DNA from: Candidatus Pantoea soli
Lineage (GTDB): Bacteria > Pseudomonadota > Gammaproteobacteria > Enterobacterales > Enterobacteriaceae
Direction of reading: 5' to 3'
Length of the DNA stretch: 64,000 nucleotides
Assembly (NCBI RefSeq): GCF_007833795.1
Contig: NZ_CP032702.1
Coordinates: 2,728,001-2,792,000 of the forward strand
Part shown: positions 2,009 to 13,719 of the stretch, piece after piece
Position numbering within the stretch: the stretch's first letter is position 1
Layout of the letters: each line of letters opens with the position of its first letter
Notes under the pieces: generated by a model
What the model was told of the DNA's origin: nothing
Database searches by the model: none
Seen by the model: only the letters and a program-made list of their open reading frames with translations
Position numbers and translations under genes: made by a program

Positions 2009-5000
2009 TTAACGCACCGTCATTTTTTCAGGGGTGCTGCCCACCGCGCGCCATGCCGGCACATACATGGATTCCACCTGCGGCGGCGGCAGTCGATAGC
2101 TGCCCGGCGTCACGACCCGTGCCAGATAAAGCAGCGTGGCCGGGCTATAGCCATCCAGCGCCAGCGCGGCCACAAAGCGATCGTCGCGAAACTCAATATG
2201 CTGAATATTGGCCTGCTGCATATCCATCAGGCTCTCTTTCAGCACATCGGCGCTGTCCCCGAGGCTGGCGCTGCTGTCGCTGAGGTTCTGATTCTCCAGC
2301 TCCAGACCCGCAGGCAGCATATCCACCACCAGCGCATCACTGACGCGTTCGCTGGCCCCTACGCTGAGCCGCACCACCAGCAGTTCTCCGCTTTTCAGAC
2401 GGGTGAGGTCTGCCGGTTGTCCCTGCAGCGTGAAATATTCACGGCGGATGCTCAGCACGTTGCTCATCGGCGACGGTGCCGTGCGCGGATAGCCCACCAC
2501 ATTCAGCGTGCCATACAGCGGCGCTGCGGTGTCGCTTTCCACCCTCACGCCCTGGCGTAACTGCGTGGCGCTCAGGCCAATGTTCACAGGGCGATCGCTG
2601 TGCAGGGCGGTTTCCCTGCCGGCCAGCGTTGCCTGCCAGCTTTCGCCTTTATGCTGCTGCAGCGGGCGCGCGGCAAGGAACAGCGCATTGTTCTCCTGCG
2701 TGGAAAACACGCGCTGGCCGTGCACCGCTTTCGCCAGTTCGATCAGCAGCAGCCCCTGCTTCTCTGGCAGCAGCTGATTTTCACTCAGCAGCGCCAGGAT
2801 TAACGCGCGATCGCGCACCGGGCTGCCGTAATCGCCCGACCAGCCCTTTATCTGACGATCCATACCCGCGCCCTGCGCCAGCGCCAGGCCGGCGCGCTGC
2901 ACATCGCCCATCAGCTGCAGCGCAACGCCCAGCTGCACCAGCGCCAGCCCGGATTTGGCCTGCGCCCGCTGTGCATACAGCGCCCGCAGTGCGCCCAGCG
3001 GTGCCTGCTGCTGACGGGCCAGCACCAGCGCCGCGTAAGCCTGTACGCTGAAACGCAGGCTGTCTGCCTCGCTGCTGCCGCGGGTGTCAATCTGTGCCGG
3101 GTCCTGCAGATAGCGCAGCAGTCGCTCATCGGCGCGACGGATTACGCCCTCCGGCACGCTGTAGCCGGCCTCGCTGGCGCGCAGCAGAAAATCGGTGACA
3201 TAGGCTGTGAGCCAGAACTCTTCCGGACTCTCTTTGCTCCACAAACCAAAACTGCCATTGCCGCGCTGCATGCCTGCCAGCCGCGCAATACCGGTATCAA
3301 TCGCGGCGCGGCGCGCCTCATCGCTGCTGGATTTAATCCCCATTGCCGCCAGCTTCGCCTGACGGGTGAAAAGCGATGGCCAGATACTGCTGGCGGTCTG
3401 CTCCAGGCAACCATAGGGATAGGCGTACAGCGCGCTGATAAAGCTGGCGAGATTAAGCGGTGGCTGATTGCTGAGCGCAAGCTGCCCGCTCAGCGTATCC
3501 TGCAACAGCCCGTTAAAGGCCGTGGCGGTCACCTGCCACGGCTGGCCGCGCTGCAGCACGTTATCAAAACTGAGCGTCTGCGCCGGATAAGCCGGACGCA
3601 CGCCAATTTTCCAGCTGCGCACGCTCGGGGCCAGCGTTTCACCCGGCACGTTCAGGCCAGAAAGCGTGACCTTCACCTCTCCTTCACCAAACCCGTTCAG
3701 GGCTTTTACACTCACCGGCAGCGTGACGCGCGCGCCTGCCGCCAGCTGTACGCTGGCCGGTGGCGGTGTGGTGGCGGCGATCAGGCCGGTGGCAGAGACA
3801 GCCAGCTGCAGCGTTTGCGGCTGATTCGTCAGGTTGGTGACATCCAGCGCCAGCGTAGACTGATCGCCGCTGGCGAGAAAGCGCGGCGTGGCCAGCTCAC
3901 TGATCAGCGGTGCCGCCACCACCAGTTTGCGCTCCGCCGCGCCAAAGCTATCGGCACTCCACACCTGCGCCATCAGCCGCAGCTCGCCGTTAAAGGCCGG
4001 AATGGGCAGTTCCAGCGTGCCTTCGCCGCTGGCATCCAGCGTAACCGGCTGCAGCTGCTGCGCCACAATCTGCACGGCGGTGGTCGGTTTTTTGCCGCCG
4101 CGCGACAGCGCATCGGCTTCCTCACCATCTCCGCCGAAGCGCAGCGCGGCCAGCCGGCCGCCGCCCTCAATCAGCTGCCCGAAGACATCGTACTGATCGG
4201 CGTTGTAGCGTTTACGGCCAAAGAAGGCGCGCCACGGATCGGGCGTTGCGTAATCGGTAATATTCAGTACGCCGCTGTCAACCGCGGACAGCAACACCTG
4301 GACCTGCTGCGGCAGCGGGCCGCCGTCACGCGTGGCGTTAACTTTCACCTTCAGCGTCTGCTCCGGACGGATCTTCTGCGGCGCGTCCAGCGTCAGGCTG
4401 AGATGACGGGCTGCCGTCGCCATGGGCAGGTGCAGCAGGCCAACGGCGCGTTTGGGCGTGGTGCCGCTGGCCTTATCGCCCTCGCGCACCACAATCGCGC
4501 TGAGATAGAGATCGTGTCGCTGCCAGCTGGCGTCGATCGGCACCGCTACCGTGGTGCCGCCGGCGGGTACGGTGAGCGGCTGCGACCAGAGCGTTCCGCT
4601 GCTGGATTCGACCAGCAGATAGCCGTTGCCCGCCGCTGGTGATGCCACCTGCACATGTGCGGTGTCGCCGGGCTGGTATGCGCTTTTGTCAATTTTCAGT
4701 TTCACCTGATCGGGACGCAGCGCGCCGGTGCCGTCGGTGTTGTCCTGCCACCAGTAGCCTGCGTTGAAGCGTACGCTGCTGACAATGTTATCCCCTGCCT
4801 GCACCTCCAGACGATACGTGCCCCACTCTACCGGGAAGCTCACTTTCTGACTGCCACCCGCCGGAATGCTGATGCGCTGTTCCTCCTCCTGCAGATCCTT
4901 CTGATCAAAGCGGGACTGCCAGCCTTCGCTGTCCGAAAAGCTCCAGTAATAGTCGCGCCGCTCGTGGATCAGCCGCACCTCAAGATCCTGCGCCGCCAGC

Positions 5001-6892
5001 TTTTCTCCCTGCGGATTGGCGTAAATGACATCAAACTCTGCAAGGCTGTTTTCTGCTACGGTGGGTTCGTCGTGGTAGCGATCGGTACGGTAGTCATACA
5101 CCGATTCGCTGCGGAACAGCGGACGAATGCCCGGCAGCGCGGCGGCAGGCCAGATAGCCTGCGTGACGCGGCGCGTGACCGGCCGGCCGCCGGTTTCCAG
5201 CAGGCTGGCCTGCAGAATCAGGCTGAGCGGTGAATGGCTCTCCGCCCAGCTGCTCTCTACCTTCAGCTGCAGCTTCCCTCCGGCATCCAGCTTCTCATCA
5301 ACCTCATCCAGCGTGCGCTTCAGCGCTTCCGTGACGTCGCCAAACTGGTAGCCCGGCAGTGTGGCAACCGCTTCGCGCGCCGGTCGCAGGAACAGCTGTC
5401 CCTGCAGTTCATTGCCCGCCGCGGGGGCGCCATACAGATAGCGCCCGTCAATCGCAAACTGCACAGCGGCGTCAGGGGCCACCGGTTGATCGCTGGCCTG
5501 CAGCGTCAGCGCCATGCGCTCCGGCAGAAAATCCTCGACGTGAAAAGACCAGCTGCGCGGCTGGTTGTCGCCGGTATTTACGCGCAGCGTCCAGCTGCCG
5601 GTCATTGCCGACGCCGGTAAACTGAAGTGCGTTTGCCATAATCCCTGCGCTGGCTGCCAGACGAAGGTTTGCACCACTTCGCCATTTGGCTGCACCACCT
5701 CCGCTTTCAGCGGCTGATCCGGCAGCGGTTTACCGTCGGCATCGCGCAGCAATGCATTGACGATCACCGTTTCCCCGGGACGATAAAGATCGCGTGGGCC
5801 AAAGAGAAACAGCTGTTTGTCATACCCCTGCGGGCCGTCAACGGCAAACTCAGCCAGATCCAGCGCCGGGCGGTTAAGATCGATAAGGGAAGTTTGCCCC
5901 TGCTGCGTCGCCAGCAGCAGCCTGCCCTTTGGCTGGGCTGGCAGACGCAGATAACCGTGACGGTCACTGCTGCCACTGGCCAGCACCTGTCCTTTTTCAT
6001 CCAGCAGCTGCACGCTGACCTGTGCCAGCGGCGTGCCGGTGGCCAGGCTCTGGGCAAACAGCTCCAGCTGCGCCGGGAAACGGTGCAGGGACAGCCCGAT
6101 GTCACTCAGGGTGAACAGCGTAGCCGGTTGCGTATAGTTGTAAGTGCCCGCCTGCTTCATGACCGCGAGGTAAACGCCCGGCTGCTGCAGCGCAGCAATA
6201 TCCCCGAGCGGCAGCTGCAGTTTCTCCCGGGTATTGCGCGCCGGGTTGAGGGCAAAACGACCGCTGTAGATCAGGTCAGCATTTTTCAGCAGATCGCGCG
6301 ATTCCCAGTACGACAGGTTATTGCCATAGTTCCACTGCGCAAGAAAATCGGTCAGCGTGCTGTTTCTGACGCGGAAGAAATCGACGTCAATCTGGCTGAC
6401 GTTCAGCGCCAGCACCGGCAGGCCCTGCGCCAGGCGCAGCGGCAGCAGCGAGCCGCGGCTGGCAAAACCCGCCATCGGCTGGATGTCACGCGTGGTCAGC
6501 GTCTGTGTGAACGGGCTGCCGAGGGTGCTGCCGTCGGCAGCCTTCAGCGCCGCCCCGACGCGCACCGTGAATTTGCGGGCCGGTTCCGGATGGCGAAAGC
6601 GCAGCGACTTGCCGTTTGGCGCCAGCTCCCAGCCACCATCAGGCTGACCGTTTTTTTCATCGCTGAGATGCAGCAGCTGGCTGAAATCCTGCTGGCTGTC
6701 GAGCGGCGTATTGAAGGTCAGCACCAGCGCGGCGGCGCCCTCCAGCTGCAGCTCTGAAAAATCGATAACGGCGAGCGCTTTCGTCGTGGTCTGTGCGGCA
6801 GGCGTCGCTGCTGCCTGCATCGCCGGCACGCTGCCAGCCAGTAAAGCCCCGCCAATCAGCATGCTGAGCAGCAGTCGGTTACGTCTTGCCAT
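2009..6892 (-). CDS. yfhM: Bacterial alpha-2-macroglobulin (ECAM-type protease trap)
   Basis: Large periplasmic macroglobulin (1627 aa; E. coli YfhM is about 1650) that traps proteases through an internal thioester. The thioester box GCLEQ is present, with the Cys at about residue 1162, in the context AYPYGCLEQTAS. The macroglobulin domains match YfhM throughout (for example GFASRGSLLP and FGPRDLYRPGETV). The ATG at 6892 is chosen because it has a GAGGG ribosome site and begins the signal peptide MARRNRLLLSMLIGGALL; a longer GTG-started form is less likely. Oddity: the position that is the lipidated Cys in E. coli (LAGC) is Ser here (LLAGS), so the protein may be cleaved by signal peptidase I and be soluble instead of membrane-tethered. 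Upstream of, and probably co-transcribed with, pbpC. Confidence 0.95.
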   Translation of the reverse strand: MARRNRLLLSMLIGGALLAGSVPAMQAAATPAAQTTTKALAVIDFSELQLEGAAALVLTFNTPLDSQQDFSQLLHLSDEKNGQPDGGWELAPNGKSLRFRHPEPARKFTVRVGAALKAADGSTLGSPFTQTLTTRDIQPMAGFASRGSLLPLRLAQGLPVLALNVSQIDVDFFRVRNSTLTDFLAQWNYGNNLSYWESRDLLKNADLIYSGRFALNPARNTREKLQLPLGDIAALQQPGVYLAVMKQAGTYNYTQPATLFTLSDIGLSLHRFPAQLELFAQSLATGTPLAQVSVQLLDEKGQVLASGSSDRHGYLRLPAQPKGRLLLATQQGQTSLIDLNRPALDLAEFAVDGPQGYDKQLFLFGPRDLYRPGETVIVNALLRDADGKPLPDQPLKAEVVQPNGEVVQTFVWQPAQGLWQTHFSLPASAMTGSWTLRVNTGDNQPRSWSFHVEDFLPERMALTLQASDQPVAPDAAVQFAIDGRYLYGAPAAGNELQGQLFLRPAREAVATLPGYQFGDVTEALKRTLDEVDEKLDAGGKLQLKVESSWAESHSPLSLILQASLLETGGRPVTRRVTQAIWPAAALPGIRPLFRSESVYDYRTDRYHDEPTVAENSLAEFDVIYANPQGEKLAAQDLEVRLIHERRDYYWSFSDSEGWQSRFDQKDLQEEEQRISIPAGGSQKVSFPVEWGTYRLEVQAGDNIVSSVRFNAGYWWQDNTDGTGALRPDQVKLKIDKSAYQPGDTAHVQVASPAAGNGYLLVESSSGTLWSQPLTVPAGGTTVAVPIDASWQRHDLYLSAIVVREGDKASGTTPKRAVGLLHLPMATAARHLSLTLDAPQKIRPEQTLKVKVNATRDGGPLPQQVQVLLSAVDSGVLNITDYATPDPWRAFFGRKRYNADQYDVFGQLIEGGGRLAALRFGGDGEEADALSRGGKKPTTAVQIVAQQLQPVTLDASGEGTLELPIPAFNGELRLMAQVWSADSFGAAERKLVVAAPLISELATPRFLASGDQSTLALDVTNLTNQPQTLQLAVSATGLIAATTPPPASVQLAAGARVTLPVSVKALNGFGEGEVKVTLSGLNVPGETLAPSVRSWKIGVRPAYPAQTLSFDNVLQRGQPWQVTATAFNGLLQDTLSGQLALSNQPPLNLASFISALYAYPYGCLEQTASSIWPSLFTRQAKLAAMGIKSSSDEARRAAIDTGIARLAGMQRGNGSFGLWSKESPEEFWLTAYVTDFLLRASEAGYSVPEGVIRRADERLLRYLQDPAQIDTRGSSEADSLRFSVQAYAALVLARQQQAPLGALRALYAQRAQAKSGLALVQLGVALQLMGDVQRAGLALAQGAGMDRQIKGWSGDYGSPVRDRALILALLSENQLLPEKQGLLLIELAKAVHGQRVFSTQENNALFLAARPLQQHKGESWQATLAGRETALHSDRPVNIGLSATQLRQGVRVESDTAAPLYGTLNVVGYPRTAPSPMSNVLSIRREYFTLQGQPADLTRLKSGELLVVRLSVGASERVSDALVVDMLPAGLELENQNLSDSSASLGDSADVLKESLMDMQQANIQHIEFRDDRFVAALALDGYSPATLLYLARVVTPGSYRLPPPQVESMYVPAWRAVGSTPEKMTVR

Positions 6893-7037
6893 GGTAAGTC
6901 CCTCACCAGCCCCAAAGGTTATCAATGTTGTGCTGCGCAATTTCACATCAACCCGCTAACTTTAGCAACGCTGCCCTTGAGATAGCTTTCACATTCCCGG
7001 ACACTGGGCTTTTCCCGATAACTGAGAAGAGGTTGCT

Positions 7038-7877
7038 ATGACGACCATGTTTGTTTCCGCGGAGTGGCTAAACGAGCATTATGCGGAAGGTGCGGTGCAG
7101 GTGCTGGATGCGCGGATGCTGCCTCCGGGTCAGGAAGCCGTGCGGGATCTCCGGGCCGAATATCTGGCTGCCCATCTGCCCGATGCGCCTTTCTTTAATA
7201 TCGAAGCGCTGTCCGATCACACCAGCCCTTATCCGCATATGATGCCGCGACCCGAAACCTTTGCCGTCGCCATGCGTGAGCTGGGCGTCCGCCAGGACAA
7301 ACATCTGGTGGTGTATGATGAAGGCAACCTGTTCTCGGCGCCGCGGGCGTGGTGGATGCTGCGCGCGTTTGGCTGTGAGCAGGTCTCGATTCTGGCGGGC
7401 GGCCTGCAGGGCTGGAAAGCGGCCGGCTATGCCGTCGCGAGCGGCCCGGTGACGCTGCCGGAAGGCGAGTTTGACGCGCATTATGACAGCAGCCAGGTCA
7501 AACGCCTGACCGATGTGCTGCTGATCAGCCATGAAGGCGGCGCGCAGATCGTGGATGCCCGTGCAGCCAATCGTTTTAATGCGGAAGTGGATGAGCCCCG
7601 TCCCGGTCTGCAGCGTGGCCACATTCCGCACAGCCTGAACGTGCCGTGGAATGAACTGGTGGTCAATGGCACACTGAAACCGGCGGCCGAATTGCGTCAG
7701 CTGTTTGAAAACGCGGGTGTCAGACTGGATCAGCCGGTGGTCGCCAGCTGCGGTTCCGGTGTGACTGCGGTGGTGGTAATTCTGGCCCTGACCTCACTGG
7801 GCGTGCGCGATGTCACCCTGTATGACGGCTCCTGGAGTGAATGGGGCAGCCGCGACGATTTACCGATCGAAAAATAG
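7038..7877 (+). CDS. sseA: 3-mercaptopyruvate sulfurtransferase
   Basis: Two-domain rhodanese-fold sulfurtransferase (279 aa; E. coli SseA 281) that moves sulfur from 3-mercaptopyruvate to thiol acceptors in the cytoplasm. The second domain carries the active-site loop CGSGVTA with Cys238, the signature of mercaptopyruvate sulfurtransferases rather than thiosulfate-specific rhodaneses. The first domain keeps WWMLRAFG and the ILAGGLQGWK turn. Divergent from yfhM and convergent with sseB. A GC-rich stem-loop without a clear U tract (GGCCGCC / GGCGGCC, 7883-7900) follows the stop. The start has AGAGG upstream. The context beside the iron-sulfur locus suggests general sulfur trafficking, but this is inference. 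Confidence 0.95.
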   Translation: MTTMFVSAEWLNEHYAEGAVQVLDARMLPPGQEAVRDLRAEYLAAHLPDAPFFNIEALSDHTSPYPHMMPRPETFAVAMRELGVRQDKHLVVYDEGNLFSAPRAWWMLRAFGCEQVSILAGGLQGWKAAGYAVASGPVTLPEGEFDAHYDSSQVKRLTDVLLISHEGGAQIVDARAANRFNAEVDEPRPGLQRGHIPHSLNVPWNELVVNGTLKPAAELRQLFENAGVRLDQPVVASCGSGVTAVVVILALTSLGVRDVTLYDGSWSEWGSRDDLPIEK

Positions 7878-7935
7878 CAGATGGCCGCCAGGCGGCGGCC
7901 GTGGATGGCGGGTTGCGCCAGAATACGCGTGCTGC

Positions 7936-8703
7936 TCAGAGAATGCGCTGGCTGCCTTTGAAATCGCGCAGGAAACTGCCCCAGCGACGTTCGTAGAATG
8001 GCGTAATGTGTGCGGTAAAGAAATGGCTGACACCCTGCTCTTCGCTGACCACTTCGCAGATATCTATCGGAGCGTCATCGGGCAGCGTATCGGTCGCCAC
8101 GCTGCCCGCCGCCTGTATGATCGTATCAATATCGCTGTCGGCTTCGATACCGATTAACAGATTTGACGGGGCGTCGGCGCTTTCGCGGATGCTGGCCAGA
8201 TAGGCGCGGCGCACCTGCTTATATTTCGCAAACAGCTGCGTCAGCGAGTCGATCATCTGCGCCGGTGGCTCTGCCACTTCAGACAGCAGCAGCGCCTGCC
8301 CGCCTTCAATGACGGTTTGCTGGCTCAGCGCATCCCCCTCTTCGCCAAGCAGATGGGCAATCTCGCCGGGAGAAAACTCTTTGCCGGCTGGCAGCTTCGG
8401 GTTAAGAAACAGGGTTTCGCCCAGCGTCATTTCAAACAGGGTACGTGCCGGCAAACGCAGGTATGGCTGCTCTTCGACAATCGCTTCGCTCATCGCCGCT
8501 TCTGACGTAAAGAAGGGGATCACGCTGCCGCCGCCCTCTTTTTCCCAGTGTTGCAGCTCAACCGGTGAAGTGGCATCAAACTGTTCCGCCGGGCTTTCGC
8601 CCGGCACCCAGACATCGGCTTCCAGCAGCAGCTGAAAAAACTCGGGACGGTGCGCAGGCTCAGTGGCCGCCAGCTTCAGCACCTCTTCCAGACGATTACT
8701 CAT
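7936..8703 (-). CDS. sseB: SseB family protein (enhanced serine sensitivity)
   Basis: Cytoplasmic protein of 255 aa (E. coli SseB 258) whose overexpression in E. coli confers serine sensitivity; biochemical role unknown. The N-terminal SseB domain begins MSNRLEEVLKLAATEPAHRP, and the C-terminal half ends in the family-typical ERRWGSFLRDF segment. It lies downstream of pepB in the same orientation, separated by a strong intrinsic terminator (8719-8748), so it is probably expressed separately. The ATG at 8703 is the only start that keeps the conserved N terminus. Confidence 0.9.
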   Translation of the reverse strand: MSNRLEEVLKLAATEPAHRPEFFQLLLEADVWVPGESPAEQFDATSPVELQHWEKEGGGSVIPFFTSEAAMSEAIVEEQPYLRLPARTLFEMTLGETLFLNPKLPAGKEFSPGEIAHLLGEEGDALSQQTVIEGGQALLLSEVAEPPAQMIDSLTQLFAKYKQVRRAYLASIRESADAPSNLLIGIEADSDIDTIIQAAGSVATDTLPDDAPIDICEVVSEEQGVSHFFTAHITPFYERRWGSFLRDFKGSQRIL

Positions 8704-8755: not shown

Positions 8756-10042
8756 TTATTTCAGTAACAGGTTGGCAAGGGTGCGCACGCCCAGCCCGGT
8801 GGCGCCGGCTGACCACTGGTCAACCGCACTTTTGCGGTAGGTGGCAGAACAGTCGATGTGCAGCCAGCCCTGCTGATAGTTGCTGACAAAATAAGAGAGA
8901 AACGCGGCCGCACTGCTGGCCCCTGCGGCATGCGCCGGGCTGGCAATGTTGTTCAGATCGGCAAAGTTTGACGGCAGATGGCTGCGATGGAATTCGGCCA
9001 GCGGCAGCCGCCAGAACGCTTCATTCTCACCGGTGGCGCTGCCAAGCAGGGACTCTGCTAATACGTCATCGAAGGTGAACAGCGCGTGATAATCGTTGCC
9101 GAGCGCCGTTTTTGCCGCGCCGGTCAGCGTGGCGGCGTCAATCAGCAACTGCGGCCGCTGTTCGCTGGCATCGATGAGCCCGTCGGCCAGCACCAGACGG
9201 CCTTCGGCGTCGGTGTTCATTACTTCCACCGACTTACCGTTACGGTAACGAATGATGTCACCCAGACGGAAGGCATTCCCGCTGACCATATTGTCTGCAC
9301 AGCACAGGTACAGCTTCACGCGCTTATCCAGACCGCGCGAAATCGCTAACGCCAGCGCCCCGGTCACGGTGGCCGCACCGCCCATGTCCGATTTCATGGA
9401 GTCCATAAAAGCGCTCTGCTTCAGGCTGTAGCCACCGGTATCAAAGGTGATGCCTTTGCCGACGAGGCAGGCATACACCGGCGCACTGTCGTCACCGGTT
9501 GGGTTGAAATCCAGCGCCAGCAGCACCGGCGCACGGGAGGACCCGCGCCCCACGGTATAAATCCCGGCGTAACCCTGCTCGCGCAGATCGTCGCCTTTGG
9601 TAATGCGATAGCTGACTGCCTCGCCGCCCACTTCGCTGATCAGATCGATCGCGCTGTGCGCCAGCTGCTCCGGGCTCAGATCTTCAGCCGGCAGGTTGAT
9701 GGTATCGCGGACCCAGTCAACGATCTTCAGGCGACGATCAAACTCGGCCTGATCCTGCTCGCTCAGCGCCGGCCACTCTACCTGACGCGTGCCTTTCGGA
9801 CTGCGGTAGCCCTGCCAAAAGGCCCAGCATTTTTCCAGATCCCAGCCTTCGCCGCTCAGCGCAACGTGGCGGATGCCCTGGCCGTCCAGCTTGCGTCCGG
9901 CGCGCTGGATGCTCATCAGCGGATCGCTGCCGGTCAGGTGCAGGGTCATGCCACTTTCATTGCTGCTCAGCAACGCTTTTTCGCCCCAGCGCGCATCGGC
10001 GGCCTGAGAGCTGAGCGTAATTGTCATCGGTTGTGTTGTCAT
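8756..10042 (-). CDS. pepB: Peptidase B (leucyl aminopeptidase family M17)
   Basis: Cytoplasmic dinuclear-metal aminopeptidase of 428 aa (E. coli PepB 427). The M17 metal and catalytic segments are visible: [24 protein letters not shown] and the signature [14 protein letters not shown]. In E. coli pepB ends the long isc-hsc-fdx-iscX-pepB cluster. Here it follows iscS directly after 59 bp. Those 59 bp contain a GC-rich inverted repeat (CTCGCCGCC / GGCGGCGAG, about 10070-10094) but no U tract, so read-through from iscS is likely. This placement is the clearest mark of the missing isc genes. Confidence 0.95.
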
Positions 10043-10101
10043 CGCGTGGCTCCGTTTGCGTTTGGTTAGCTCGCCGCCAGCCCGGCGGCGAGTGACATGA
10101 A

Positions 10102-11271
10102 TCAGCGGGCGCTGGCAGGCGACAATGCCCGCAGCCGGCTCACCGCTTTCGTGACCAGCCCGATTGCATAATCAATCTCCTCTTCCGTGGTAAAGCGGCC
10201 CAGCGAGAAGCGCAGCGAGCTGTGGGCCAGCGCCTGCTCCACGCCCATGGCGCGTAACACATAAGAGGGTTCGAGGCTGGCCGAGGTACAGGCAGAACCG
10301 GAAGAGAGCGCCAGATCTTTCAGCGCCATGATCAGCGATTCGCCGTCAACGTGGGCAAAACTGATATTGAGAATGTTAGGCGCACCGTGCGCCAGCGAAC
10401 CGTTAATCTGTACATCGCTGAGCGCGCTGATGCCCTGCCACAGACGCTGGCGCAGGGCTGCCAGTCGCGGCATCTCTTCGTGCATCTCTTCATGGGCGAT
10501 GCGATAGGCTTCCCCCATGCCGACAATCTGGTGTACCGGCAGCGTGCCGGAGCGCATGCCGCGCTCATGTCCGCCACCGTGCATCTGGGCCGCGATCTGC
10601 AGCTTCGGTTTACGGCGCACCCACAGCGCACCAATGCCTTTTGGCCCGTACAGCTTATGTGCGGAAAACGACATGAGATCCACCGGCAGCACGCTGACAT
10701 CCAGCGGCAGTTTGCCCACACTTTGGGTGGCATCAACGTGGAACAGAATATCGCGTGCGCGGCACAGCGCACCCAGCGCGGCAATGTCCTGAATCACGCC
10801 GGTTTCATTGTTGACGTGCATCAGTGAGACCAGCACCGTGTCGTCGCGCAGCGCGGCTTCCAGCATCTGCGGGGTGACAATGCCATCGTTGCCAGGCTGC
10901 AGAAAGGTGACGTCAAACCCTTCGCGCGCCAGCTGTTCGCAGCTGTCGAGCACGGCTTTGTGTTCAGTCTGACTGGTGATGATGTGTCGGCCGCGCGCCT
11001 GGTGCTGCAGTGCTGCCCCTTTGATGGCCAGGTTATCGGCTTCGGTGGCACCAGAGGTAAAGACGATTTCACGCGGATCGGCATTGACCAGCCCGGCAAT
11101 CTGATTGCGGGCAACATCGACGGCCTCTTCAGCCTGCCAGCCAAAACGGTGAGAACGGGAAGCGGGGTTACCGAAGGTGCCATCCAAAGTGAGGTACTGC
11201 ATCATTTTGCTGGCGACACGCGGATCGGCAGGCGTTGTCGCTGCGTAATCCAGGTAGATCGGCAATTTCAT
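10102..11271 (-). CDS. iscS: Cysteine desulfurase IscS with a shortened C terminus
   Basis: PLP-dependent cysteine desulfurase that makes a persulfide for Fe-S clusters, tRNA thiolation and thiamine. The N terminus [20 protein letters not shown] and the PLP-lysine segment ([12 protein letters not shown]) match IscS, and the mobile catalytic Cys lies in [19 protein letters not shown]. Length is 389 aa against 404 in E. coli. The protein stops right after RLRALSP, so the last ~15 residues of the usual tail (ending in the EWAHH region that contacts IscU) are replaced by ASAR. No other frame continues the tail. The partners IscU, IscA, HscB, HscA, Fdx and IscX are all absent between this gene and pepB. 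The likely retained role is tRNA thiolation and general sulfur supply, with SUF handling clusters elsewhere; that is inference. Confidence 0.93.
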
Positions 11272-11374
11272 TGCGCTAAAACTCCGTATAAAAATTCATA
11301 CGTCTTTATAGCACGATTCGGCCTCTGCCGTATTAAGCCCGTTATGCTGCGGGCCGCAGAAGCGAAGGCTATCC

Positions 11375-11405
11375 CGCCCGCGCCGCAGTATGCCGGGCGC
11401 GGGCG
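11375..11405 (-). other. Stem-loop in the iscR-iscS intergenic region
   Basis: Perfect 10-bp GC stem (CGCCCGCGCC / GGCGCGGGCG) with an 11-nt loop, just after the iscR stop on the transcribed strand. There is no U tract. In E. coli a structure in the same gap stabilises the iscR part of the mRNA when the small RNA RyhB targets iscS; a similar role is possible here. A second small palindrome, CTGCGGGCCGCAG, lies at 11346-11358. Confidence 0.5.
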
Positions 11406-11420
11406 AAAAGGCAGGGAAAT

Positions 11421-11918
11421 TCAGGCGCGCAGATTGACGTTAATGGTTTCCTGCACGCGGTGCTGCTGGAAGCGGCGGTTATCCACGCTATTCTGGCGAT
11501 CGGCCACGTCGAGGATTTCCTGATTGTTTACCAGTTCCGCCAGCGTGATGTTGTTAAGGAATTCGCTGATGCGCTCACTCAGATCGCGCCACAGTACGTG
11601 CGTCAGGCAGCGCTCACCGCCCTGACAGCCCTCTTTGCCCTGGCACTTAGTGGCATCAACAGATTCGTCAACCGCGGTGATGACCGCGCCCACGGCAATG
11701 GCCGCAGCCTCTTTTCCTAACAGATAACCGCCGCCTGGACCACGTACGCTGGCAACCAGACCATGCTTACGCAGGCGTGAGAATAACTGCTCCAGATAGG
11801 AGAGCGAAATGCCCTGACGCTCGGAAATATCGGCCAGCGGAACCGGGCCCGCGTGCGAATGCAGGGCAACGTCCAGCATAGCGGTAACGGCATAACGTCC
11901 TTTGGATGTCAGTCTCAT
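11421..11918 (-). CDS. iscR: Iron-sulfur cluster regulator IscR (Rrf2 family)
   Basis: Rrf2-family winged-helix regulator that binds a [2Fe-2S] cluster and represses or activates Fe-S biogenesis genes. 165 aa. The DNA-binding part starts [19 protein letters not shown] and includes [19 protein letters not shown]. The cluster ligands Cys92, Cys98, Cys104 and His107 are all present ([17 protein letters not shown]), so cluster sensing is probably intact. The ATG at 11918 matches the E. coli start and has an ACGAGG ribosome site; a longer reading to 11939 is rejected. The promoter region carries three tandem IscR-like operators, so autoregulation is expected. It has outlived the loss of most of its operon. 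Confidence 0.96.
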
Positions 11919-11986: not shown

Positions 11987-12011
11987 ATTCCCGAGTATTT
12001 TGGTCAACTAT
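11987..12011 (-). promoter_or_regulatory. Type 1 IscR operator upstream of iscR
   Basis: On the reverse strand this 25-bp site begins ATAGTTGACC and ends ACTCGGGAAT. It fits the type 1 IscR consensus (ATASYYGACT...AGTCRRSTAT) at 22 of 25 positions by hand count. A TTGACC hexamer inside it could be the -35 box, which would let IscR block RNA polymerase. Confidence 0.75.
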
Positions 12012-12012
12012 T

Positions 12013-12060
12013 TAACCGAGTATTCCGCTCAACTATTTAACCTGGTGTTTTACTCAACTA
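12013..12060 (-). promoter_or_regulatory. Two further IscR-like half-conserved sites
   Basis: Two more copies of the ATAGTTGA start of the operator occur upstream, about 28 and 51 bp from the first. Each fits the 25-bp type 1 IscR consensus at about 19 of 25 positions. The most distal overlaps the trmJ stop codon. E. coli also has more than one IscR site at this promoter. Confidence 0.5.
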
Positions 12061-12797
12061 TTACCCTTATCACCTTTGGGTTTTTCAAACGATGACAGCA
12101 TGCCGCGCAGAATATTGAGTTCATCACGCTCCGGGCGCGCACGGGTATAGAGACGACGCAGCTTGCTCATCACCTGGCTTGGGGTACCCTGGCGGATAAA
12201 GCCGCTGTTCATCATCATCTGTTCAATGTGCTGATAAAAGCGCTCCAGATCGTCCACCAGCGGATAAGGCGATTCCGCATACTGCGGCTGTGGCGTGGCG
12301 TTCGCCTGGGCGTCCAGCCAGGCCATGCGCACTTCATACGCGATAATCTGCACCGCCATGGCGAGATTCAGCGAGCTGTATTCAGGGTTGGCCTGAATAG
12401 CGACATGATAGTGGCACTTCTGCAGCTCTTCATTGGTCAGGCCAACGCGTTCGCGGCCAAACACCAGCGCCACCGGCGCCTGCTGGCCCTCTTCCACGCT
12501 TTTAATACCGCATTCGCGTGAATCCAGCATCGGCCAGGGCAGCGAACGGGAGCGCGCGCTGGTACCCACCACCAGGCTGCAACCGGCAATCGCTTCATCC
12601 AGCGTATCGACAATGTGAGCATCGCCAATCACATCGCTGGCGCCAGCTGCCAGGGAGATGGCCTGTGAATCCGGCTTAACCAGCGGATTCACCAGATACA
12701 GGTTGCTTAAACCCATGGTTTTCATGGCTCGGGCAACGGAACCCATGTTGCCGGTGTGCGACGTTTCGACCAGTACGATTCGGATATTTTGCAGCAT
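12054..12797 (-). CDS. trmJ: tRNA (cytidine/uridine-2'-O-)-methyltransferase TrmJ
   Basis: SPOUT-family methyltransferase that 2'-O-methylates position 32 of several tRNAs. 247 aa (E. coli 246). The N terminus [20 protein letters not shown] carries the Asn-Arg type SPOUT motif 1 region, [14 protein letters not shown] is motif 2, and [16 protein letters not shown] is motif 3 with the knot. The ATG at 12797 is chosen by homology; the open frame runs 60 codons further upstream without conserved sequence. Same strand as iscR, with 135 bp between, which hold the IscR operators. Divergent from suhB. Confidence 0.95.
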
Positions 12798-12915
12798 AAT
12801 TGAGAGCAGTGAGAAAATGATGGCGCGCATCCTAACATAAAACAGGACATTTGCTGAACACGCTGATATACTCCGCGCCGTTTTCCCGTTCTTTAACATC
12901 CAGTGAGAGATACCG

Positions 12916-13719
12916 ATGCATCCGATGCTCAACATCGCCGTGCGCGCAGCGCGCAAGGCCGGAAATTTAATTGCCAAAAATTACGAAACCCCGGACGCGG
13001 TCGAAGCCAGCCAGAAAGGCAGCAACGACTTCGTGACGAATGTTGACCGCGACGCAGAACGTCTGATTATCGAAGTAATTCGTAAATCTTACCCGCAGCA
13101 CACCATCATCACCGAAGAGAGCGGTGAGCTGGCCGGTGAGGATCAGGACATTCAATGGGTTATCGATCCGCTGGATGGCACCACCAACTTTATCAAACGC
13201 CTGCCCCACTTCTCGGTGTCTATCGCTGTGCGCATTAAAGGCCGCACCGAAGTTGCCGTGGTGTACGATCCCATGCGCAACGAACTGTTCACTGCCGTCC
13301 GCGGTCAGGGCGCTCAGCTTAACGGTTATCGCCTGCGCGGCAGCACGGCGCGCGATCTGGATGGCACCATCCTCGCTACCGGCTTCCCGTTCAAACTCAA
13401 GCAGCACGCGACCCCCTATATCAATATCGTGGGCAAACTGTTTACCCAGTGCGCAGACTTCCGCCGCAGTGGATCCGCCGCGCTGGACCTGGCTTACGTG
13501 GCCGCCGGTCGCGTGGACGGTTACTTTGAGATCGGCCTGAAGCCGTGGGATTTTGCGGCCGGTGAACTGCTGGTGCGTGAAGCTGGCGGCCTGGTGACCG
13601 ACTTCACCGGCAACCATGGCTACATGCTGTCGGGTAACCTCGTAGCCGGTAACCCGCGCGTGGTGAAAGCGATGCTGGCCAGCATGCGTGAAGAACTGAG
13701 CGAAGCGCTGAAGCGCTAA
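12916..13719 (+). CDS. suhB: Inositol-1-monophosphatase / Nus factor SuhB
   Basis: Mg-dependent inositol monophosphatase fold, 267 aa, the same length as E. coli SuhB. In E. coli it also acts in the rRNA antitermination complex with NusA. Metal-site motifs are present: [14 protein letters not shown], and a C-terminal [15 protein letters not shown]. The ATG at 12916 follows AGTGAGAG. Divergent from trmJ. A strong bidirectional terminator follows at 13751-13780. Confidence 0.96.

Follow-up and report, generated by a model that had tools for sequence, protein, structure and literature searches.

A shortened IscS without its scaffold partners in Candidatus Pantoea soli, and recurrent absence of IscU among the Enterobacterales

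The isc locus of Candidatus Pantoea soli is reduced to iscR and iscS, and the cysteine desulfurase that it encodes has lost its C-terminal helix and tail. SUF is very probably the only builder of iron-sulfur (Fe-S) clusters in this bacterium, with IscS surviving as a sulfur donor to TusA and ThiI, and with docking faces that decayed after the scaffold was lost. Escherichia coli (E. coli) is the textbook model of Fe-S cluster assembly, and ISC is its housekeeping system. Both ISC and SUF are described for E. coli and related enterobacteria in passages of PMC8593673 and PMC11559095. The locus lies in a stretch of 64,000 nucleotides, hereafter referred to as the window. On the minus strand the gene order is trmJ-iscR-iscS-pepB-sseB, with sseA converging, and the features are as follows.

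12054..12977, minus strand: trmJ, the conserved upstream neighbour, named by synteny; open reading frame read from TTG
12041..12061, minus strand: third type-1-like IscR site, degenerate; pattern match with 3 mismatches
12016..12036, minus strand: second type-1-like IscR site, 25 bp further up than the first; pattern match with 0 mismatches
11991..12011, minus strand: first type-1-like IscR site, upstream of iscR; pattern match with 0 mismatches, kept in relatives
11421..11918, minus strand: iscR, Fe-S sensing regulator of the Rrf2 family (NCBIfam), with C92, C98, C104 and H107 present
11272..11420, minus strand: iscR-iscS spacer, 149 nt, with a strong predicted fold of -70.7 kcal/mol (an absolute energy, not relative to shuffled sequence)
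10102..11271, minus strand: iscS, a cysteine desulfurase of 389 amino acids lacking C-terminal helix and tail, with C328, K206, W45, E49, D52 and R55 kept
10043..10101, minus strand: iscS-pepB gap, 59 nt, all that remains between the two genes
~10070-10092, minus strand: hairpin in the iscS-pepB gap, with a 9-bp stem
8756..10042, minus strand: pepB, aminopeptidase (NCBIfam NF003450)

The true start of trmJ probably lies further in than the TTG of its open reading frame. IscR passes the NCBIfam model TIGR02010 with a score of 222.3 against a cut-off of 207.55. IscS passes NF010611 (676.9, cut-off 548) and also, by 14 bits, the stricter cut-off of TIGR02006 (656.9 bits against 643.2). In IscU-bearing relatives, pepB comes after iscX or fdx. 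Here, a tblastn search of the locus, in which the full isc set of a Kluyvera locus (L022) served as queries, found none of iscU, iscA, hscB, hscA, fdx and iscX between iscS and pepB. This agrees with the initial annotation, in which iscR and iscS were followed by pepB after 59 bp without these six genes. Close relatives differ in the stem of the hairpin in the gap, but folding is retained in most of the relatives tried; the hairpin could be a terminator or a processing signal. In E. coli, the position of the iscR-iscS spacer holds the target of RyhB and a stem-loop that protects iscR.

The rest of the genome gives the same picture. The IscU/NifU_N domain (PF01592) had 0 matches genome-wide, in a search that detected the domain in 12 of 14 named genomes, among them E. 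coli, and this rules out an IscU encoded elsewhere. HscB (PF07743, HSCB_C) had 0 matches in the 62 IscU-less genomes searched, among them this one, the control in E. coli being positive, and frataxin (PF01491) also had 0 matches genome-wide. For HscA, Fdx, IscA and IscX the search covered the isc locus, from which they are absent. The operon sufABCDSE, for the SUF pathway that the initial annotation had suggested IscR might regulate, is intact and comprises six consecutive open reading frames at C1 ~1646021-1651592 (3022-8592 of locus L245). SufB, SufD and SufS exceed their NCBIfam cut-offs, and SufA, SufC and SufE are named by gene order only. Genes for TusA and ThiI are present in the genome as well. 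Six Pantoea genus-mates (L364-L369) have a match to PF01592 in a protein of 274 amino acids, which by its domains is a NifU and not IscU. Two of the six NifU-carrying genus-mates (L213 and L214) also hold a second, NifS-like desulfurase, with 50-52% identity.

The IscS of the window has 389 amino acids and the reference from the Kluyvera locus has 404. Their alignment covers residues 1-385, as expected from the claim that IscS is about 15 residues short and has lost its docking tail; the segment that forms the IscU-binding C-terminal helix and tail in the reference (residues 379-404) is not found in the protein. In E. coli IscS, the C-terminal helix 379-391 binds IscU, according to passages of Shi et al. 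2010 (PMC2854127). We infer that the short IscS probably no longer binds IscU. In all 61 Pantoea genomes, IscS stops at reference residue 381-385, and an assembly artefact or a frame error is excluded by this agreement. The PLP lysine K206 and the persulfide cysteine C328 are kept in 107 of 107 IscU-less loci, that of the window included.

Among 296 relatives, NifU_N is absent from 107, and SUFBD is present in 103 of those 107; the other four are G037 (74% complete), G137 (0.2 Mb), G269 and G283. The arrangement iscR-iscS-pepB without the stretch iscU-iscX was found in 6 of 80 loci, which belong to P. anthophila, P. stewartii, two Erwinia, one Enterobacterales MAG and Lonsdalea quercina. Erwinia strain OLFS4 retains the genes of this stretch, and in L053 and L060 iscU is interrupted by the contig end. 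A seventh locus, in a Thiohalobacter MAG (L073, 5818-8546), has two IscS-like genes, with iscA directly after iscS and no iscU in the stretch covered; it retains iscA, hscB, hscA and an intact IscS tail, which counts against the preferred explanation. Some loci stand beside this main division. In L355 (G128) and L356 (G091, probably Erwinia sp. OLFS4), iscSUA-hscBA-fdx is kept and there is no iscX before pepB, which may be how decay begins in lineages close to Pantoea. Three genomes of 0.3-0.5 Mb (G065, G081 and G162) have SUFBD but lack TusA, and a search for IscS at E 1e-60 found none in them. In L135-L137 (G207, G292 and G278, from a distant family of the order), an IscS-type gene without tail and with the TusA contacts kept adjoins SUFBD genes.

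Frataxin/CyaY was found in 84 of 177 genomes, and none of the 84, which were compared directly, is IscU-less; the make-up of the 177-genome sample was in part deduced (73 negatives). Passages of Roche et al. 2015 (PMC4440780) state that all cyaY-carrying genomes also had iscU, and the same co-occurrence is seen here. Compared with what those passages describe, the joint loss is tracked here within one order and is tied to changes in IscS residues. No mention of Pantoea or Erwinia was found in them, and a limited literature search by title did not find ISC scaffold loss described for these genera. In one genome (G082), IscU is present and CyaY has no match, so that frataxin can go before IscU.

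The tail of IscS follows the scaffold. Comparison of C-termini among relatives, as had been proposed at the outset, gave a short IscS in all 61 Pantoea genomes and a long one, matched to reference residue 402-404, in 79 of 80 IscU-bearing genomes. The match in the eightieth (G156) spans 1-263 only, and the tail region is not covered. The tail is kept even in IscU-bearing genomes of 0.4-0.6 Mb, at 62-70% identity. A tail-residue score was based on nine tail positions that are invariant in 104 loci. All nine are kept in 0 of the 108 IscS loci of 107 IscU-less genomes (46 loci outside the genus and 62 inside); none is kept in 56 loci, one in 35, two in 10 and three or more in 7. Four loci were left out of this count as paralogues or doubtful, namely L141 (G194), L142 (second copy of G207), L149 (second copy of G175) and L150 (G283). 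The replacement tails vary from lineage to lineage.

On an RpoB tree, the presence of IscU changes 15 times (14-16 in bootstrap trees), at least nine of these changes lying on well-supported branches; these are unrooted parsimony counts, in which gain and loss are indistinguishable. The tree was built from codon positions 1 and 2 (2246 columns) of 80 chosen genomes of the 296, omits most genomes under ~1 Mb, and has a bootstrap that is not fully settled. Its supported branches provide 8 independent pairs, in which the tail follows IscU in a mean of 7.6 and does the opposite in 0 (median p 0.0078), with the tail leniently scored as reaching residue 402 and with G188 left out. This careful tree supersedes a quick RpoB tree that gave at least 7 forced changes and 6 pairs (p 0.031). 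The linked loss of scaffold and tail that had been claimed from the window thus recurs in independent lineages.

It could be argued that tail loss came before scaffold loss or had a cause of its own, or that the two losses are unrelated and shared only by descent. The state of the genus is indeed inherited, and its 61 genomes amount to one data point. We nevertheless regard this explanation as very improbable, given the changes and pairs counted above and the fact that the tail is lost in 0 of the 79 IscU-bearing genomes in which it is covered. In addition, four IscU-less genomes still keep part of the tail: of the nine residues, 6 are found in G124, 6 in G250, 8 in G263 and 5 in G267. With only one of nine residues changed after IscU has gone, G263 counts against the preferred explanation. 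These partial tails, together with the reverse state not being found, indicate that scaffold loss precedes tail loss. Hardly credible, and the least probable of the alternatives, is repeated gain, instead of repeated loss, of the isc scaffold genes. The unrooted counts cannot by themselves separate the two directions, but across the order the isc genes, where present, are at the same position, iscRSUA-hscBA-fdx(-iscX)-pepB, and G250 holds pseudogene remnants at that place. An iscU fragment with internal stops lies directly behind iscS (45% over 60 aa, E 1e-7) and an iscX fragment lies before pepB, and the sister genome G188 has the full operon.

The body of IscS has changed as well. We scored 176 positions within residues 1-380, all with a conservation of 97% or more among IscU-bearing loci, over 15 IscU-less clades. 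Eleven loci (L135-L137, L140-L142 and L146-L150) were left out, and the 107 loci used include a few duplicates, L021/L024 being probably the same genomes as G020/G012. While 76% of the 176 positions are unchanged in all 15 clades, R112 changes in 11, R116 and E285 in 8, F89 and D346 in 7, E309 and I166 in 5, and K221, R223, R225, E347 and H350 in 4. Passages of PMC2854127 place the IscU contacts at helix 309-316 and E347, besides the C-terminal helix, and the docking of CyaY/IscX at an Arg patch. TusA contacts W45, E49 and D52, and ThiI uses R220, R237, R340 and others; its binding is weakened by changes of F89, R116 and R223, and R112 and R225 are not needed (passages of PMC2854127). Decay is thus seen at R112, R116, R223, R225, E309 and E347, which are published contacts of IscU and CyaY/IscX. 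Sites that serve lost partners only are altered in 2.31 of the 15 clades on average, compared with 0.64 for all sites of equal conservation in IscU-bearing relatives (permutation P 0.0026), and in 1.54 compared with 0.47 when clades with reduced genomes are removed (P 0.011); the residue sets, numbered from the same passages, were grouped after the de novo list of decaying sites was known.

Confinement of the decay to lost-partner sites is not fully borne out. On its own, the set of IscU body contacts reaches only P 0.058. The ThiI set is raised too, through F89, R116 and R223 (P 0.009), and decay also affects E285, D346, I166 and H350, for which no partner role has been published. The residues R220, R237 and R340, which ThiI requires, are mostly kept, and R112 and R225, which it does not require, are not. 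Two weak CyaY sites, R39 and G234, are unchanged. Change in the TusA set is low, with P 0.13 at the 0.97 threshold, which is not significant, and 0.016 at 0.90. W45, E49, D52 and R55 are uniform across 64 loci of the genus. Of 36 TusA-bearing loci from other genera, 35 have all four, and the remaining one has E for D52. Outside the genus, 3 of 3 TusA-less loci deviate at the TusA contacts; they belong to three tiny genomes in which IscS persists. Of two divergent loci that were added, G109 has no TusA and deviates, and G148, where TusA is present, is also without the W45/E49/D52 set. The contrast between TusA-less and TusA-bearing loci is a hint only, because these genomes are very small and fast-changing. 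Of 62 IscU-less genomes, 54 have TusA, and this, together with the kept TusA contacts, indirectly supports the earlier claim that IscS may be retained for tRNA thiolation.

The regulator has remained. The three type-1-like sites precede iscR at 25-bp steps, and similar tandem sites are found before iscR in most IscU-less relatives tried. The cluster ligands of IscR, numbered C92, C98, C104 and H107 in passages of PMC8593673, are kept in 89 of the 92 IscU-less loci in which iscR was matched. The suf leader (L245 2640-3022, C1 ~1645639-1646021) has a Fur-box-like stretch and, far upstream of sufA, a 35-nt block that is identical in 15 of 15 aligned genus genomes. This block contains a degenerate, spacing-correct, type-2-like candidate IscR site adjoining a TTGAAG hexamer. 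In the E. coli sufA promoter, a type-2 IscR site lies within the -35 region (passages of PMC8593673). The type-2 pattern alone proves nothing, since the 11-kb suf stretch holds 24 matches where 11 are expected, and the conserved block is its sole support. A replacement RNA or leader family was rejected, as 701 bases of the suf leader gave no Rfam match at E up to 1. As judged from sequence, the block suggests that IscR may act on suf here; SUF would then both mature IscR and be controlled by it.

Mycobacterium tuberculosis (M. tuberculosis) is a SUF organism that has no IscU but does have a desulfurase of the IscS type, and this IscS has been proposed to feed Fe-S building. The short IscS of Pantoea could, by the same token, still build clusters by feeding SufE/SufBCD or apo-proteins directly, its tail being unneeded without IscU. 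Such a role would suit an iscS that adjoins iscR under type-1-like candidate sites, that is, under Fe-S feedback, as well as the retention of the IscR ligands and the unchanged active site of IscS. We consider it unlikely, because the suf operon has its own SufS and SufE and because the residues kept on IscS are the contacts of TusA, which most IscU-less genomes encode. The change of these residues in the three tiny TusA-less genomes, where IscS persists, points in the same direction, although general decay predicts the same. M. tuberculosis is a distant lineage, while the cases in Enterobacterales are recent, repeated and partly in progress.

The preferred explanation, in which SUF builds the clusters and IscS supplies TusA and ThiI, can be set against the systems of E. 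coli. The locus resembles E. coli ISC (iscRSUA-hscBA-fdx-iscX, CyaY) in its position, iscR, iscS, flanking neighbours and type-1-like IscR sites, but it lacks scaffold, chaperones, ferredoxin and IscX, its genome lacks frataxin, and its IscS lacks helix 379-391. IscS shares with the E. coli thiolation hub (TusA, ThiI) the active site, W45/E49/D52/R55 and the presence of TusA and ThiI genes, but thiolation would be its sole job here, and the CyaY/IscX Arg patch is eroding. The suf operon has the order of E. coli sufABCDSE, with SufB, SufD and SufS above cut-offs; there it is a stress back-up, while here it is probably the sole system. An ancestor would have carried the usual iscRSUA-hscBA-fdx-iscX operon. 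SUF would then have taken over all Fe-S cluster assembly, after which the scaffold and chaperone genes were presumably lost, along with frataxin/CyaY, the modulator of ISC. IscS would have been retained because TusA (s2U of tRNA) and ThiI (s4U and thiamine) still draw sulfur from it, and sulfur from IscS would now go to tRNA and cofactor pathways only. With IscU, CyaY and IscX gone, their docking surfaces would no longer be under selection. The C-terminal helix and tail would vanish first and most completely; single residues in the Arg patch and on the helices that face IscU would change next, while the TusA face and the active site would stay fixed.

The initial annotation had read scaffold loss and tail loss as linked, with IscS left for tRNA thiolation. 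That overall interpretation is supported, since neither an IscU elsewhere in the genome nor a relative with both a short IscS and IscU was found. To it are added the recurrence, the direction, a pseudogene intermediate, the loss of frataxin, and the finding that a second docking face decays while that for TusA is retained. We think it probable that Enterobacterales shed the ISC scaffold at least nine times independently and that each time IscS was re-sculpted into a dedicated tRNA/cofactor sulfur donor. Its docking faces would have been lost one by one with their partners: the IscU tail, the Arg patch for CyaY/IscX and, where the smallest genomes have lost TusA, the TusA face. The lineages would then form a natural mutational scan, in which E285, D346, I166 and H350 are marked as further ISC contacts without an assigned partner.

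A large group of close relatives relies on SUF alone, which implies that even enterobacteria that live freely and have genomes of 4-6 Mb can do without ISC. From the pattern of changed residues one can test which partner each part of IscS serves, and the pattern flags sites that have no assigned partner so far. Naturally IscU-blind IscS proteins, as these appear to be, could separate the tRNA role of E. coli IscS from its role in cluster assembly.
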